Under the pieces are notes generated by a model. That model was given only the letters and a program-made list of their open reading frames with translations. It did not search any database and had not been told where the DNA came from. Shown here one piece after another: positions 50,067 through 57,915 of a stretch of 64,000 nucleotides of DNA (the first letter of the stretch is position 1; each line of letters opens with the position of its first letter). Location of the stretch: assembly GCA_020852175.1 (NCBI GenBank), contig JADZBH010000016.1, positions 186,001-250,000 of the forward strand, read 5' to 3'. Made by a program: the position numbers and the translations under genes. The DNA is from Bryobacterales bacterium. GTDB taxonomy: Bacteria; Acidobacteriota; Terriglobia; Bryobacterales; Bryobacteraceae.

Positions 50067-51443
50067 CTACTGCTTAATGACGGTGCCGTCGCGGCGGCGG
50101 ACGACGCCCCAGCCGCCGTTCAGAGCCTGGCGGCCCGAGGGCATGCCGCCTCCGCGTGATGTGGTCTGGGAGCCGCCGAAGGGGTATTTCTTCGCGGCGG
50201 CCTCATTGATTTCGATGCCCCAGCCGGGCGCCTCGTTGGCATAGGCGTAGCCGTCCTTGTAGGTAGGCATGCCGGTGAAGATCTCCTGAAGACGCGGGTT
50301 ATCGAGGCCGCTCCATTCCTGGATGCCGAAGTTGTAGCAGGCCAGGTCGAGGGCGACGTTGGCGGCGTGGCCGATGGGGGAGACGTCGCCAGGGCCATGC
50401 CAGGCGGTGCGGACGCCAAAGATTTCACCCATGGCGGCGATTTTCCGGCAGGGCGTGAGGCCGCCGGCCTGGGAGACGTGGACGCGGATGTAGTCGATGA
50501 GGCGCTCGGCGATGAGCGGGGACCATTCGTGCGGGGAGTTGAAGAGTTCGCCCATGGCGATGGGGGTTGCGCACTGCTGGCGCGTGAGGCGGAACCAGGC
50601 GATGTCCTCGGGCGAGAAGGGATCCTCGAAGAAGTAGAGTTTGAACTGTTCAACGTCCTTGCAGAACTGGAGGGCCTGGGTGGGCGTGACGCGTTCATGG
50701 ACGTCGTGGCAGAGTTCGATCTCGTCGCCGAGCTGTTTGCGGCACTCCTCGAAGAGTTTGAGGGCGCGGCGGATGTAGACGGCGGGTTCGTAGACGGGGT
50801 CGTTGTGAAGCGAGGCGGCGCGGTTGCCGCCTCCCCGGCCGCCGTAGCCGTCCATGCCGGGGATGCCGACCTGGACGCGGATGTGGCGGACCTTCTCGGT
50901 TTCGATGTAGCGCTTGGCCATGTCGATGACCTGTTGGATTTCGCCGCCCGAGGCGTGGCGGTAGACATCGGCGGCCTCGCGCAGCTTGCCGCCCATGAGC
51001 TGGTAGACGGGCATGCCGGCCTGGCGGCCCTTGATGTCCCACAGGGCCTGGTCCACGCCGGAGATGGCGTTGTTCAGCACGGGGCCGTTGCGCCAGTAGG
51101 AGGAGTTGTAGCACATCTGCCAGGTGTCGTCGATGCGGTCGGCGGGGCGGCCGATGAGAAGGGGCTTGAGGTACTTCTCGACGGCGGGCACGACGAGGTC
51201 GGCGCGCTGGGTGAAGGTGCCGCAGCCATAGCCATAGAGGCCGTCCTGATCGGTGATGACCTTGACGACGATCAGGCGCAGGCCGGTGGGTGCGGTGGCG
51301 ATCACCTGAATGTCCTTGATCTTGGGCGAGGGCATGGCGCGGGTGGCGCGCGCGGCCTGTTCCTGGGCGGCGGCCTCGCGCCGTGTCATCAGGGTGGCGA
51401 ACCCCGCCGAGGAGGCGAGCTTCAGCAGACTTCTGCGGTTCAT
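50067..51443 (-). CDS. ManD/RspA-like enolase-superfamily dehydratase with Tat leader
   Basis: A 458-residue protein of the mandelate racemase group. Residues such as HDVHERVTP, FFEDPFSPED, GELFNSPHEW and RTAWHGPGDVSP correspond to the metal ligands and catalytic blocks of D-mannonate dehydratase/RspA relatives. These act on sugar acids and are usually cytoplasmic, but here the N-terminus NRRSLLKLASSAGFA is a twin-arginine leader, so export is likely. The ATG overlaps the stop of ccmD (ATGA 51440-51443), placing it at the end of the cytochrome c maturation operon. Confidence 0.82.
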   Translation of the reverse strand: MNRRSLLKLASSAGFATLMTRREAAAQEQAARATRAMPSPKIKDIQVIATAPTGLRLIVVKVITDQDGLYGYGCGTFTQRADLVVPAVEKYLKPLLIGRPADRIDDTWQMCYNSSYWRNGPVLNNAISGVDQALWDIKGRQAGMPVYQLMGGKLREAADVYRHASGGEIQQVIDMAKRYIETEKVRHIRVQVGIPGMDGYGGRGGGNRAASLHNDPVYEPAVYIRRALKLFEECRKQLGDEIELCHDVHERVTPTQALQFCKDVEQFKLYFFEDPFSPEDIAWFRLTRQQCATPIAMGELFNSPHEWSPLIAERLIDYIRVHVSQAGGLTPCRKIAAMGEIFGVRTAWHGPGDVSPIGHAANVALDLACYNFGIQEWSGLDNPRLQEIFTGMPTYKDGYAYANEAPGWGIEINEAAAKKYPFGGSQTTSRGGGMPSGRQALNGGWGVVRRRDGTVIKQ

Positions 51444-51598
51444 CCTTTGTTCTCCCGTTCTTCGAGCATACGTTTGAGGGTATCCACTTCCTTGCGCAGT
51501 TTACTCTCCCTGGCGACTAATGTCAGCAGGTAAGCGGCGAGAAGAAACCAGGCGACGGCGAAGCCGTAGAACATGAATTGAAAATTGCGTTCGTCCAT
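51440..51598 (-). CDS. ccmD: CcmD-like small membrane protein
   Basis: A 52-residue protein: a short N-terminus, one membrane helix (MFYGFAVAWFLLAAYLLTLV, about 9-28) and a charged helix with heptad spacing (RESKLRKEVDTLKRMLEERE). Size, topology and position directly after ccmC match CcmD, which helps release holo-CcmE from the CcmABC complex. It overlaps the next gene by ATGA. Confidence 0.8.
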   Translation of the reverse strand: MDERNFQFMFYGFAVAWFLLAAYLLTLVARESKLRKEVDTLKRMLEERENKG

Positions 51599-51617: not shown

Positions 51618-52307
51618 TTACAGGTTGTGGGTGTACCGCCGCAGGGCGTCGAGTTCGCGTTGCATCCGCTCCTGGCCGAGGCGGAGCATCATGATGACGC
51701 CGGCGAAGGCGGTGAGGGCGAACCAGTTTTGAAAGAGCATGTGCTCCATGGCGGGGTCCATGCGCTGCTCGCCGCCGGTGCGGAAGCTGAGGACGGCGCC
51801 GGGGTGTTGGGTGCGCCACCAGTCGATGGATTTGTAGGTGATGACGACGCTGACGAAGGCGAACAGGCTGACGACGGCGGCGATGCGGGCGCGTTGTCCG
51901 GGCTCGTCGATGGTTTTGCGGAGCAGAAGGTAGCCGGCGTAGATGAGGAAGCAGATGAAGGCCCAGGTGAGGCGTGGGTCCCAGACCCACCAGACGCCCC
52001 AGATGATCCGGGCCCAGACCATGCCGGTGCCGAGGCCGAGCATGGTGAAGATGGTTCCGACCTCGGTGAGGGCGACGGCGAACTCATCGGCGCGGGAATC
52101 GCGTTTGACGAGGTAGTAGATGCTGGCGACGGCGGCCAGGAAGTAGGCCGAAAACGAGGTGATCCAGCCGGGCACATGGAAGTACATGATGCGGTAGATG
52201 GCGCCCTGGGCGGCTTCGTCGGGCAGTTGGAGAAGGATGACGTAGAGGTTGCGGACCAGGTAGAGGCCGCTGAACAGGGCCATGGCCATGAGGATCTTGG
52301 TTTTCAT
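51618..52307 (-). CDS. ccmC: Haem exporter component CcmC
   Basis: A 229-residue protein with six membrane segments. It has the tryptophan-rich WGVWWVWDPRLTWAF motif (about 103-117) that holds haem, flanked by the conserved periplasmic histidines (YFHVPG near 42-47 and the one before the last helix, EHMLFQNW). CcmC loads haem onto CcmE. It lies between ccmB and ccmD. Confidence 0.93.
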   Translation of the reverse strand: MKTKILMAMALFSGLYLVRNLYVILLQLPDEAAQGAIYRIMYFHVPGWITSFSAYFLAAVASIYYLVKRDSRADEFAVALTEVGTIFTMLGLGTGMVWARIIWGVWWVWDPRLTWAFICFLIYAGYLLLRKTIDEPGQRARIAAVVSLFAFVSVVITYKSIDWWRTQHPGAVLSFRTGGEQRMDPAMEHMLFQNWFALTAFAGVIMMLRLGQERMQRELDALRRYTHNL

Positions 52308-52318
52308 GCGGTACTCCT

Positions 52319-52987
52319 TCAGTTGACCAGTATGACGTCGATCAAGGCCAGGGAGAGCGAGGTGAAGATGATATCAAAGCCGATCAGGAGCTTGACCCAA
52401 ACCCAGTCGTCGCCGGTGATGCCCGTGCCCGAGAGCAGGGCGGAGGTGAGCTGCATGGCCGCCATCAGGACGGGGATGAGCATGGGGTAGACCAGCACGG
52501 GGAGCATGAGTTCGCGCAGGCGGAGATTGACGGTGAGGGCGCTGAACATGGTGCCGATGACGGTCATGCCCCAGGTGGCCAGCGCGCAGGTGAGGGCGAT
52601 CCAGCCGGGGAAGCGGAGCCAGTCGGCGTTGAACAGGATGCCGAAGACGGGCAGGGCGATCAGTTCGACCACGGCCAGGAGGGCGAAGTTGGCGAGGGCC
52701 TTGCCGAGGAAGAGCGCCCAGCCGGGAAGGGGCGAGGCGACCAGGGCGTCCAGGCAGTCGTTGGACTGTTCGCGGGCGAAGGAGCGGTTCAGCACGAGCG
52801 CGCCGGCAAAGGCGAAGACGAGCCAGAGAAGGCCGCCGCCGAATTCGCGGGCGTCGCCCGAGATGTCCAGGACGAAGCTGAACAGAACCAGGATGACCAT
52901 GGAAAAAGCCGCGGCGGCGTTGATGGACTCCTTGGTGCGGAGTTCGCTGCGGAGGTCTTTCCAGGCGATGGTGAGGACGTGGCGCAT
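52319..52987 (-). CDS. ccmB: Haem exporter permease CcmB
   Basis: A 222-residue membrane protein with six helices. The N-terminus HVLTIAWKDLRSELRTKE and the block NRSFAREQSNDCLDALVASPL are typical of CcmB. It pairs with CcmA to form the ATPase that frees holo-CcmE. The start at 52987 lies 4 nt after the ccmA stop. Confidence 0.92.
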   Translation of the reverse strand: MRHVLTIAWKDLRSELRTKESINAAAAFSMVILVLFSFVLDISGDAREFGGGLLWLVFAFAGALVLNRSFAREQSNDCLDALVASPLPGWALFLGKALANFALLAVVELIALPVFGILFNADWLRFPGWIALTCALATWGMTVIGTMFSALTVNLRLRELMLPVLVYPMLIPVLMAAMQLTSALLSGTGITGDDWVWVKLLIGFDIIFTSLSLALIDVILVN

Positions 52988-52991
52988 GGGC

Positions 52992-53699
52992 TCAGGAGTC
53001 CTCCCCATAGTTGCGGTAGACCCAGGCTGGGTCGGCGAGAATTTCCGGCGTGCGCTCGCCTTTGTGGACGAGTTTGCCGCGCACGAGCAGGGCCCAGTGC
53101 GTGGCCAGTTCCATGGCCTCGCGAAGCTGGTGGGTGGACATGACGACGGTGGCTCCTGCGGCCAGGCGTTCGGCGAGCAGGCGTTGGAGCAGGGCGATGG
53201 AACGGTCGTCGAGCGCGGTGAAGGGCTCGTCCAGCAGCAGCAGGTCCGGCGCATGCAGGAAGGCGCGGGCGACGGCGAGCCGCTGGCGCATGCCTCGAGA
53301 AAATTCGCGGGCACGGGCGTGGGCGACGTGATTAAGGCCGACCCGTTCGAGCCAGTCCAGAGCGGTCTGGCCGGGGTTGGCGACGCCGTAGAGCGTGCCG
53401 AAGAGTTCGAGATTTTCCCGGGCGGAGAGCTCGTCGTAGATGCCGATGCCGTGGCCGAGAACGCCGGTTTTGCGGCGCGCGCCGGAGGAGTGGCCCTCCG
53501 AGCCGAAGACGCTCACCGAGCCCTGGGAGACGGTGGAAAGGCCGGCGAGGATCTTGAGCAGCGTGGTTTTGCCCGCGCCGTTGCGGCCGAGCATGGCCAG
53601 GCACTCGCCAGGCGCGACGCCCAGGGTGACGGCGCGCAGGGCGGGGAAGTCGCCGAAGTATTTCCAGACCGCTCGTACGTCGAGAGCGGCGCCGCTCAT
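52992..53699 (-). CDS. ccmA: Haem exporter ATPase CcmA
   Basis: A 235-residue ABC ATPase with Walker A GRNGAGKTT (about 37-45), a signature loop FSRGMRQRL (about 133-141), Walker B LLLLDEPFTALD (about 153-164) and switch His in STHQ. It powers CcmABCD. The start overlaps the preceding gene by ATGA (53696-53699). Confidence 0.92.
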   Translation of the reverse strand: MSGAALDVRAVWKYFGDFPALRAVTLGVAPGECLAMLGRNGAGKTTLLKILAGLSTVSQGSVSVFGSEGHSSGARRKTGVLGHGIGIYDELSARENLELFGTLYGVANPGQTALDWLERVGLNHVAHARAREFSRGMRQRLAVARAFLHAPDLLLLDEPFTALDDRSIALLQRLLAERLAAGATVVMSTHQLREAMELATHWALLVRGKLVHKGERTPEILADPAWVYRNYGEDS

Positions 53700-54664
53700 G
53701 TCCCGGAAGCTCCCTTGCGGTAGAGGATGAGGAAGCCGATGGCAAGGACGGCCAGGGAGAGGGCGAGGATCTCCTTGTAGCGGAGATAGACCCTGGGGCG
53801 GATCTGCTGGAGCCCTGCGCCGCCTTCCTCCTCCACGTTCTCGACGCCGCCCTGCGAGGAGCGGAGCGAACCCGTGCCTTCAAAGCCGATGGAGAAGGAC
53901 CGCTTGGTGAGTTCGAAGATACCGGCCTGGGTTTGCGGCTCGGCGCCGAGTTCCTTCACGTCGCCGGAGAGGGTGACGCCCCGGGGGGCGACGACGCGGA
54001 CGGGCCCGTCGTGAAAAATCCTACCCGTGAATACGGGTGGATTGGGCGTGGGCAGGGCATAGGACACGTCGAAGCGGGTTTCGCCGGGTTTGACGGGGAA
54101 GTCCACCGTATAGATACCGGCGGTCCTGGTGGGTTCGAGAGCGCGTTCGATGGGCAGCGAGTTGGGTCCGGCCACCATGACGCGGGCCTTGCCGCCGGCG
54201 GCCTCGGGCAGGGCCAGGCGCAGCGTGCCGCGGGCGGTGTCGTAGTAGGCCGTCGTGCCGGTGTTCTGGAAGATGATGCTTTCGTTGACGGTGAGGCCGG
54301 AGGCGCCGGGCTCCAGCAGAATCATGTGGGTGGTCACCTTGGCCTTGGCGTCGCTGGTGGTGGAGTTATAGACGTTGACGGTGATTCCTGTGGCGGCCTG
54401 GCCGGGGGGAATCATGTGGTTGAAGACCATGCCGTCGTGGACGGCCTGCACGAGTTGAGGGCCCTGGACGTCCTGAGCGAACTTGAACTCGCCGGTGCGA
54501 CCGGCCTTGATGGTATCGAGCGCGTTGGGGCCGTTTTGATCGAGCTTGAAGAGCGTGACGGTGGCGCCGGGTTGGGGCTTGCCGGTGGTGCCGTTGACGA
54601 CCGTGCCATCGACGGCGGCCGAAAGCGTGGCGGCCGCGAGCAAGGCGGCCAAAAGGAGTCTCAT
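53696..54664 (-). CDS. Secreted, C-terminally anchored protein inside the ccm operon
   Basis: A 322-residue protein: signal peptide (about 1-17), a carboxypeptidase-regulatory-like beta-sandwich (DGTVVNGTTGKPQPGATVTLF, about 19-39), two further beta domains, and a C-terminal membrane helix (ILALSLAVLAIGFLILY). It is not a standard Ccm component, yet it sits between the CcmI-like gene and ccmA with coupled junctions on both sides (54661-54664 and 53696-53699). It may be a periplasmic scaffold for apocytochrome handling; this is inferred only from position. Confidence 0.7.
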   Translation of the reverse strand: MRLLLAALLAAATLSAAVDGTVVNGTTGKPQPGATVTLFKLDQNGPNALDTIKAGRTGEFKFAQDVQGPQLVQAVHDGMVFNHMIPPGQAATGITVNVYNSTTSDAKAKVTTHMILLEPGASGLTVNESIIFQNTGTTAYYDTARGTLRLALPEAAGGKARVMVAGPNSLPIERALEPTRTAGIYTVDFPVKPGETRFDVSYALPTPNPPVFTGRIFHDGPVRVVAPRGVTLSGDVKELGAEPQTQAGIFELTKRSFSIGFEGTGSLRSSQGGVENVEEEGGAGLQQIRPRVYLRYKEILALSLAVLAIGFLILYRKGASGT

Positions 54665-54942
54665 GATTGGCCTCCCTGGGCGGCTTGTTCGATTTCGGCG
54701 AGGGTTTGGGCAAGCTCCTTCTGAAGGTCGAGCTTGGTGCGCTGGTAGTCTTCGTCGCTCAGTTTGCCGAGGCGGAATTCGAACTGGAGGTCGCGCAGGT
54801 TCTCATAAATGCGGGCTTTACGTTCTTCCAGATGACGGGTGGGCGATTCGCCTTCCTCTTGTGGCAGGTCCGAGGGCCGGATGAACAGGATGAAGGCGAT
54901 GGCGGCCAGGACAATGGCGATGGCGGCGGCGATGAGGGGCAT
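54661..54942 (-). CDS. CcmI-like membrane protein (N-terminal part only)
   Basis: A 93-residue protein with one membrane helix (about 2-21) and a charged cytoplasmic or periplasmic helix (EERKARIYENLRDLQFEFRLGKLSDEDYQRTKLDLQKEL) that matches the N-terminal segment of CcmI-type apocytochrome chaperones. The TPR domain of full CcmI is missing. The ATG overlaps the last base of the ccmH stop (TAATG). Confidence 0.7.
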   Translation of the reverse strand: MPLIAAAIAIVLAAIAFILFIRPSDLPQEEGESPTRHLEERKARIYENLRDLQFEFRLGKLSDEDYQRTKLDLQKELAQTLAEIEQAAQGGQS

Positions 54943-55412
54943 TATTCGAGTTTGGAAAGATTCTGATCGATGGAATCACGGTATTTATCGAGCACGGACG
55001 GGTCCATCTCGGGAACGGGGGCGGGTTTGCGCATGTGCGAGATCCACTTGTAGATGGCCAGCAGGCCGATGAGGACGGCGGCGACGGGCATCCACCAGGC
55101 CAGGAGATTGAAGCCCTCGGCGGGCGGAACCACGAGGGCCTTGAGGCCCTGCTCCTTGACGAAGACGGCGACGATAGCGTCGTCGGACATGCCTTTGTCG
55201 AGCATCTGGCCGATGCGCGCGCGGGCCGGCGCCGAATAGTGGCAGCCGATCATGGGGCAGTCGCCGACGGAGTTCTTGCAGGCGCCGCAAAGGCAGGCCA
55301 GGCGCATGCCCACGCGCTTGACGGCCGGGGCGATGAAGTCGCTGGAAACCTGGGCGAGGCAGAGGTAGCTGGCGATGAGGAGCAGTGCGAGGCGTCCTGC
55401 GCGTCTAGTCAC
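54942..55412 (-). CDS. ccmH: CcmH/CycL-type apocytochrome thiol oxidoreductase
   Basis: A 156-residue protein with a signal peptide, a CcmH domain and a C-terminal membrane helix (about 109-130). The redox motif is LACLCGAC (Cys40, Cys42, Cys45), followed by two more cysteines (Cys52, Cys57), more than the usual single CxxC. The later block ARARIGQMLDKGMSDDAIVAVFV is the standard CcmH helix bundle. The GTG start at 55412 overlaps the ccmF stop by 8 nt. It keeps apocytochrome cysteines reduced for haem attachment. Confidence 0.85.
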   Translation of the reverse strand: MTRRAGRLALLLIASYLCLAQVSSDFIAPAVKRVGMRLACLCGACKNSVGDCPMIGCHYSAPARARIGQMLDKGMSDDAIVAVFVKEQGLKALVVPPAEGFNLLAWWMPVAAVLIGLLAIYKWISHMRKPAPVPEMDPSVLDKYRDSIDQNLSKLE

Positions 55413-57462: not shown

Positions 57463-57915
57463 TTAGATGGACGCCTTGCCGCCGGAGGCGGGCGGGGCGG
57501 TCTGGCCGGGGGGCTGATAATTCTGGCCCGGCTTGGCTTCGTACTTGGAAGCGCACTTGGCGTCGATTTTCGTGGCGTGGAATACGCCGTCGCGGCCCAT
57601 GCGGCCGTGGGCCACCGCCTGGGCGCCGCCTTTGAAGGTATCCGGCAGCGGGTCGTTGGCGTCGTAAAGCACGGGGACGGTCAGGTCGTTTTGCTTCAGG
57701 AGAAAGCGGACCTCATGGCCATTGCGCTGCACGGAGCCTTCGGCCACGTCGCCGGCCACGCGGAGGCGTTTCGTGTAGACGTCGTCGCCCATCTTCTTCA
57801 GCTCGGAGACTTCCTTGTAGTAGGATTTCGTGTCGCTGATGCCGCCGACGGCGAGCCAGGCCAGCGTGCCGATGATGACCGTGGTGAGCAATCCGAATTT
57901 AATGTAAGGCTTCAT
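57463..57915 (-). CDS. ccmE: Haem chaperone CcmE, cysteine (CX3Y) variant
   Basis: A 150-residue protein with an N-terminal membrane anchor (about 7-25) and an OB-fold domain (about 45-120). The covalent haem-binding residue, histidine in the common HX3Y motif, is cysteine here: KCASKY, Cys121 and Tyr125. The CX3Y form is known from Desulfovibrio and archaeal systems. The tail (about 126-150) is Pro/Gly-rich. GGGAG lies 6 nt before the ATG. It is the first gene of the ccm operon. Confidence 0.92.
   Translation of the reverse strand: MKPYIKFGLLTTVIIGTLAWLAVGGISDTKSYYKEVSELKKMGDDVYTKRLRVAGDVAEGSVQRNGHEVRFLLKQNDLTVPVLYDANDPLPDTFKGGAQAVAHGRMGRDGVFHATKIDAKCASKYEAKPGQNYQPPGQTAPPASGGKASI

Follow-up and report, generated by a model that had tools for sequence, protein, structure and literature searches.

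A cysteine-type CcmE with its own form of CcmH in a cytochrome c maturation operon common in Acidobacteriota

Introduction

What kind of machine is encoded by a cytochrome c maturation (ccm) operon in which the haem chaperone CcmE has a cysteine in place of the haem-binding histidine, and which also contains a ccmH gene? The question is raised by a locus in the genome of a Bryobacterales bacterium (assembly GCA_020852175.1; 5.0 Mb, 92.5% complete), within a 64,000-nt stretch of DNA (contig JADZBH010000016.1, positions 186,001 to 250,000 of the forward strand) that we call the window. CcmE proteins with a CX3Y motif are a feature of System I*, which according to the review PMC3601427 goes back to work on Desulfovibrio and archaea (Allen 2006; Goddard 2010). 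A preliminary description of the window took as its premise that CcmH is missing from CX3Y systems, and read the operon as an intermediate type of the maturation machinery. That premise is outdated: the same review, from 2011, states that CcmH is present in about one-third of bacteria with a Cys-type CcmE, naming delta-proteobacteria, Chloroflexi and Firmicutes, and does not treat a lack of CcmH as characteristic of them. The combination of Cys-type CcmE with CcmH is already known, and is not new. From sequence comparisons, we think it likely (probability about 0.82) that the window encodes a functional System I*-type machine for cytochrome c maturation that has its own form of CcmH.

Results

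The operon and its CcmE

The operon is on the minus strand, in the order ccmE, ccmF, ccmH, ccmI-like, P, ccmA, ccmB, ccmC, ccmD (E-F-H-I-P-A-B-C-D):

57463..57915, minus strand: ccmE, Cys-type haem chaperone (C121-x3-Y125, CASKY); PF03100, E = 1.1e-23; ATG start, 150 aa
55405..57426, minus strand: ccmF, haem lyase; PF16327/PF01578; TIGR00353 411 bits, below cut-off
54942..55412, minus strand: ccmH, with CxCGxC...C....C cysteines instead of LRCxxC; PF03918, E = 1e-11
54661..54942, minus strand: ccmI-like, 93 aa; TIGR03142 27.1 bits, slightly below the cut-off of 29.3
53696..54664, minus strand: gene P, 322 aa, between ccmI and ccmA; PF13620 below cut-off
52992..53699, minus strand: ccmA, ABC ATPase; PF00005; TIGR01189 140.9 bits, cut-off 131.6
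52319..52987, minus strand: ccmB, membrane subunit; PF03379, E = 4.1e-32
51618..52307, minus strand: ccmC; PF01578; TIGR01191 143 bits, below cut-off
51440..51598, minus strand: ccmD, alternative CcmD family, 52 aa; TIGR04391 30.9 bits, cut-off 24

By profile matches, the cluster contains the whole System I* core set of CcmA, CcmB, CcmC, CcmE and CcmF. CcmF has the WGGYWGWDPVENAS motif and the four His columns common to E. coli, Cupriavidus and Bacillota CcmF, and CcmC has WGVWWVWDPRLTW and both conserved His residues; in alignments, the two proteins retain the His and WWD residues that they have in common with E. coli. The preliminary gene inventory (a CX3Y CcmE, a CcmH with extra cysteines, CcmD, a CcmI of 93 residues, and no CcmG in the cluster) stands as far as it goes, but it left out the conserved 322-aa gene P. 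The mechanical ORF of ccmH begins at TTG 55436; its true start is probably GTG 55412, which overlaps the ccmF stop.

The only cysteine in the window CcmE is Cys121, in the motif Cys121-Ala-Ser-Lys-Tyr125. When the protein is aligned with CcmE from E. coli, Cupriavidus and Metabacillus, C121 and Y125 fall in the same columns as His130 and Tyr134 of E. coli CcmE, so that the motif is the CX3Y of System I* and not the HX3Y of canonical System I. The CcmE-family profile also matches the structure of the D. vulgaris cysteine-type CcmE (2kct), with the cysteines aligned. Both C121 and Y125 are kept in 17 of 17 relatives (alignment A1), and comparison of ccmE with its 95%-identical relative L032 (L, G and f are our labels for loci, genomes and families) gave dN = 0.025 and dS = 0.45, so C121 is not a sequencing error. 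Cys121 in the window CcmE is real and conserved.

As possible objections, the preliminary description had named a histidine-type CcmE elsewhere in the genome, and close relatives that all have the ordinary HX3Y form. Neither was found. The source genome has a single PF03100 match, which is the window CcmE, and the relatives are all Cys-type. The nearly complete genomes G187 and G289, from the same family, have one CcmE each, both with CASKY (L082 and L081), so these close relatives do not have a hidden His-type CcmE. No match to ResB (PF05140), the marker that we used for System II, was found in the source genome at its 92.5% completeness, and we rejected System II as the acting machinery on this basis. 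The genome contains one CcmE, one CcmH and one CcmI-like gene, and it has 24 matches to the cytochrome c domain. Because there is no ResB, the CcmE is the sole one and cytochrome c domains are numerous, the window operon is probably the cytochrome maturation machine that this genome uses.

CcmH has its own cysteine motif

The window CcmH profile-matches the CcmH structures 2hl7 and 2kw0, and is the only PF03918 match in the source genome. Its presence departs from the original 2006 description of System I*, in which there is no CcmH, and in place of the LRCxxC of canonical System I it has CxCGxC (alignment A3; comparison with E. coli). This motif is shared across the phylum: CxCG(x)C is present in all 69 of the Cys-type Acidobacteriota loci that we read with CcmE, CcmF and CcmH together, 68 of them by pattern and one (L081) by hand, since in that protein CDCGC lies upstream and RCPVCQ is a later match. 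The F-H-I clusters of family f2, which were fetched separately from CcmE, also have CxCG(x)C. His-type loci instead have RCxxCQ (18 of 18, including five Proteobacteria plasmids). Two Bacillota Cys-type loci have neither motif; their CcmH has PGCx8C. Among the Archaeoglobales, Geoglobus and Ferroglobus combine a CXXXY CcmE with CcmH-like proteins in which LX[SN]C[EDH]C is present and LRCXXC is not (PMC4600277).

In a quick CcmF tree (71 rows, root not inferred), a single branch (SH-aLRT 82) separates the His-type loci from the rest, with one change of the CcmE residue in the whole tree. The association between CcmH motif and CcmE residue therefore amounts to one phylogenetic event, and because the root was not inferred neither His nor Cys can be called ancestral.

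Some genomes have additional CcmH-like proteins. Six loci (L221, L222, L225, L227, L228 and L230) contain second, unlinked ones in which PCC replaces the usual cysteine pair, and genome G017 has a second F-H-I cluster (L226:1460-2206) whose CcmH has YCPVCP, in contrast to L104, its Cys-type partner locus.

A short CcmI and a conserved gene of two beta-sandwiches

The CcmI-like protein comprises a membrane helix and a coil, and has no tetratricopeptide repeats (TPR), so it is not the TPR-bearing CcmI of canonical System I. By profile alone the call is weak, but the gene's position is conserved, and there is no second TIGR03142 match in the source genome. Most relatives have a C-terminal zinc ribbon in CcmI, which has been lost in the window gene, L032 and L033.

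Gene P occupies a conserved position between ccmI and ccmA in Acidobacteriota. Its product has a signal peptide, a transthyretin/CarboxypepD_reg-like beta-sandwich (residues ~17-100), a second beta-sandwich (~105-264) and a membrane helix (~291-318). In a structure model (pLDDT 84.6, made from the 23-sequence alignment A2), fold matching identifies the first domain as transthyretin-like (3e8v, Z = 12.3), and the second beta-sandwich is similar to the N-terminal domain found in M1 aminopeptidases (Z ~11). These likenesses between modelled folds do not give P a function. We rejected a peptidase role, as there is no catalytic domain despite the M1 aminopeptidase N-terminal likeness. We also considered a role as a metal or haem ligand, and found no invariant His, Cys or Met in alignment A2. 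In many relatives, P has an extra C-terminal stretch that resembles the membrane helix and coil of CcmI (E-values down to 4e-6 with a first-pass CcmI profile). P is absent from several Cys-type families, in which ccmI abuts ccmA, so it is not universally required. The two Bacillota plasmid loci have a 310-aa gene at the same position, with only a weak match to P (hhalign probability 32%, E = 4.8e-4, over 250 columns); synteny suggests that it is a homolog.

The operon has no CcmG

No CcmG-type gene was found near the window cluster on the operon strand, as the preliminary description had reported for the cluster. In the Acidobacteriota Cys-type loci, nearby thioredoxin genes are solely on the opposite strand, whereas 15 of the 18 His-type loci have a DsbE-type gene within the operon, near ccmF, and the two Bacillota plasmids have a thioredoxin gene on the operon strand. 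Unlinked to the operon, the source genome encodes one DsbD and several thioredoxin-like proteins, of which two are TlpA/ResA-like. The ResA/TlpA-like L070 and L069, which are outside the cluster, could serve as CcmG; L070 scores 52.8 bits against DsbE, for which the cut-off is 123.

The histidine form is the exception in Acidobacteriota

The preliminary description had proposed a survey of acidobacterial CcmE sequences by residue and accompanying genes. In a sample of 396 Acidobacteriota genomes, 242 have a CcmE match, 192 have CcmH, and 186 have both (lists compared by hand). After exclusion of G252 and G315, whose PF03100 matches are too weak or doubtful, about 214 of 240 genomes are Cys-type and about 26 are His-type, and about 160 of the Cys-type genomes have CcmH. 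These numbers are approximate because the type of each genome was extrapolated from the loci that we read in its family, and one genome of the His-type family f83 is Cys-type. The His-type families number six (f22, f26, f41, f48, f83 and f86). Direct reading of 194 distinct CcmE proteins, a small number of them encoded on plasmids from other phyla, gave 168 that are Cys-type, 25 that are His-type, and one, which is archaeal, that is neither. L146 is Cys-type; the His call made for it by a simple pattern is an artefact. Thus in Acidobacteriota, a large soil phylum, the Cys-type CcmE is the rule, and the histidine form known from textbooks is exceptional. CASKY is found in Terriglobia-like families, and CPSKY in most others.

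The archaeal protein, from a Natronorubrum bangense plasmid (L257:7001-7456), lacks both HX3Y and CX3Y at the expected position and has a C-terminal tail rich in His, Asp and Glu; it was scored as His by pattern through this tail, and we excluded it from the His counts. Among the His-type genomes, G254 has two CcmE loci (L128 and L129), one of them away from the ccm operon. No relatives were found in the viral contigs that we searched.

The loci fall into three main arrangements: (i) A-B-C-E-F-(G)-H, in which CcmE is His-type and CcmH has RCxxCQ; (ii) A-B-C-E-F, with a CPSKY CcmE and no CcmH found, which is the reduced System I* pattern (f17, f35, f46, f69, f72, f74, f77, f79, f87 and the one f83 genome); and (iii) E-F-H-I-(P)-A-B-C, the arrangement of the window operon, in which CcmE is Cys-type. 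Family f2 has a variant of (iii) with two separate clusters, E-A-B-C and F-H-I-P, and a smaller group that includes f5, f18, f32 and f36 has E-F with no CcmH detected. Absence of CcmH at a locus does not mean absence from the genome: f10, f21, f54 and f63, for example, have PF03918 matches elsewhere. In Cys-type families f16, f25, f30, f45, f47, f59 and f85, CcmF and CcmH form a single reading frame of 825-975 aa (loci L113-L115, L124, L125, L135, L136, L146, L161-L171, L249 and L251-L253).

Discussion

A possible mechanism

In the mechanism that we propose, CcmABCD would load haem onto Cys121 of CcmE, probably through a thioether bond, with Tyr125 as axial ligand. In Methanosarcina acetivorans, Cys120 of CcmE is required for haem attachment (PMC9084895). 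The thioether is not certain, because D. vulgaris CcmE is reported to bind haem non-covalently via its Cys, according to a study cited in PMC3884852. CcmF, together with an adjacent or fused CcmH, would pass the haem to the CXXCH sites of apocytochromes, and the CxCGxC cluster of CcmH may replace the usual LRCxxC pair as a thiol or metal site. Short CcmI and P would stand in for the TPR-bearing CcmI, with P possibly in the role of its TPR part. In place of a CcmG encoded in the operon, the unlinked DsbD and TlpA/ResA-type thioredoxins may supply reductant.

How haem is released from the CcmE cysteine is an open question, since a thioether is expected to be very stable (PMC3601427). The systems usually cited for this question are the reduced ones of Desulfovibrio and archaea. 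Acidobacteriota provide a much larger set in which any CcmH linked to a Cys-type CcmE has a changed thiol motif as well, often together with P, and the changed CcmH and P are specific, testable candidate partners for haem release. A bolder proposal, which we make tentatively and consider somewhat doubtful, is that Cys-type CcmE and CxCGxC CcmH would each provide half of a single haem-transfer chemistry based on thiols, which either replaced the His-type chemistry or came before it, and that P, with short CcmI, would be an undescribed apocytochrome-handling subunit replacing the TPR domain of CcmI, common to Acidobacteriota and Bacillota.

Other readings of the locus

The chance is about even that the association between CcmE residue and CcmH motif arises simply because the operon is inherited as a unit, and that the two are not linked mechanistically. 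The single change of the CcmE residue on the CcmF tree fits this explanation, and gene order, CcmG and P also differ between the same two clades; the archaeal CcmH-like proteins that accompany a CXXXY CcmE (PMC4600277) also lack LRCXXC and carry CxC, and the Bacillota CcmH likewise lacks LRCxxC, which argues for a link, with shared ancestry as a possible explanation in both cases. A little short of even odds, in our estimate, is that the operon is a plain member of the known System I* that has retained CcmH, leaving nothing further to explain. The frequency of CcmH among such bacteria (PMC3601427) and the CcmH-like proteins of Archaeoglobales (PMC4600277) speak for this reading, but for the gene order, the phylum-wide split in CcmH motifs, P and the CcmF-CcmH fusions we found no published account in the literature searched, mostly outside subscription journals.

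That the operon is an evolutionary intermediate between a full System I (His, CcmH, CcmG, CcmI) and a reduced System I* (Cys, neither CcmH nor CcmG), much as the preliminary description had it, now seems improbable. The operon does combine CcmH and a remnant CcmI with the lack of a linked CcmG, and CcmH-less Cys-type systems of order A-B-C-E-F occur in the same phylum. However, A-B-C-E-F and E-F-H-I-P-A-B-C are on separate deep branches of the CcmF tree, with the His clade between them (as rooted for drawing), and the gene order and CcmH motif are unlike those of canonical System I. This arrangement persists across dozens of families and extends to Bacillota; it is the dominant, internally consistent one in Acidobacteriota, where it comes with a CcmH motif of its own and an extra gene. 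It is very improbable that CcmE is degenerate or its cysteine incidental, with haem transferred independently of C121. The non-covalent haem binding reported for D. vulgaris CcmE (as cited in PMC3884852) would be compatible with this, but CcmE has no cysteine other than C121, which is invariant, ccmE is under purifying selection, and no alternative machinery was found in the genome. A second, His-type CcmE that could do the work was looked for and rejected, as the source genome has none.

Comparison with known systems

With System I* the Acidobacteriota loci share a CX3Y CcmE, together with CcmABC and CcmF, and the lack of a linked CcmG, and a Cys-type operon from Desulfovibrio matures cytochromes in E. 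coli (PMC3601427). The window operon differs in having a CcmH with CxCGxC, a short CcmI, gene P and the order E-F-H-I-P-A-B-C-D, an arrangement that appears to be undescribed in the literature we searched. Canonical System I, as in E. coli and Cupriavidus (A-B-C-D-E-F-G-H(-I)), has homologous CcmA, B, C, E, F and H, and its haem-handling His and WWD motifs are conserved in the window. The window operon differs from it in having Cys for His in CcmE, a CcmH without RCxxCQ, no operon CcmG, no TPR-containing CcmI, another gene order, and the extra gene P.

Outside the phylum, the two Bacillota plasmids, Metabacillus pB218 and Cytobacillus firmus p1, have the order E-F-H-short I-P-like-A-B-C with a CPSKY CcmE, and in pB218 also the alternative CcmD; unlike the window operon, they have a TlpA gene in the operon, a CcmH with PGCx8C, and a P-like protein without a detectable CarboxypepD_reg domain. 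Geoglobus and Ferroglobus, by the published description (PMC4600277), are similar in CcmE and in the absence of LRCXXC from their CcmH-like proteins, but they are archaeal and have a duplicated CcmF flanked by two CcmH-like genes. The window holds an ordinary member of an arrangement that is widespread in Acidobacteriota and is itself a variant of System I*.
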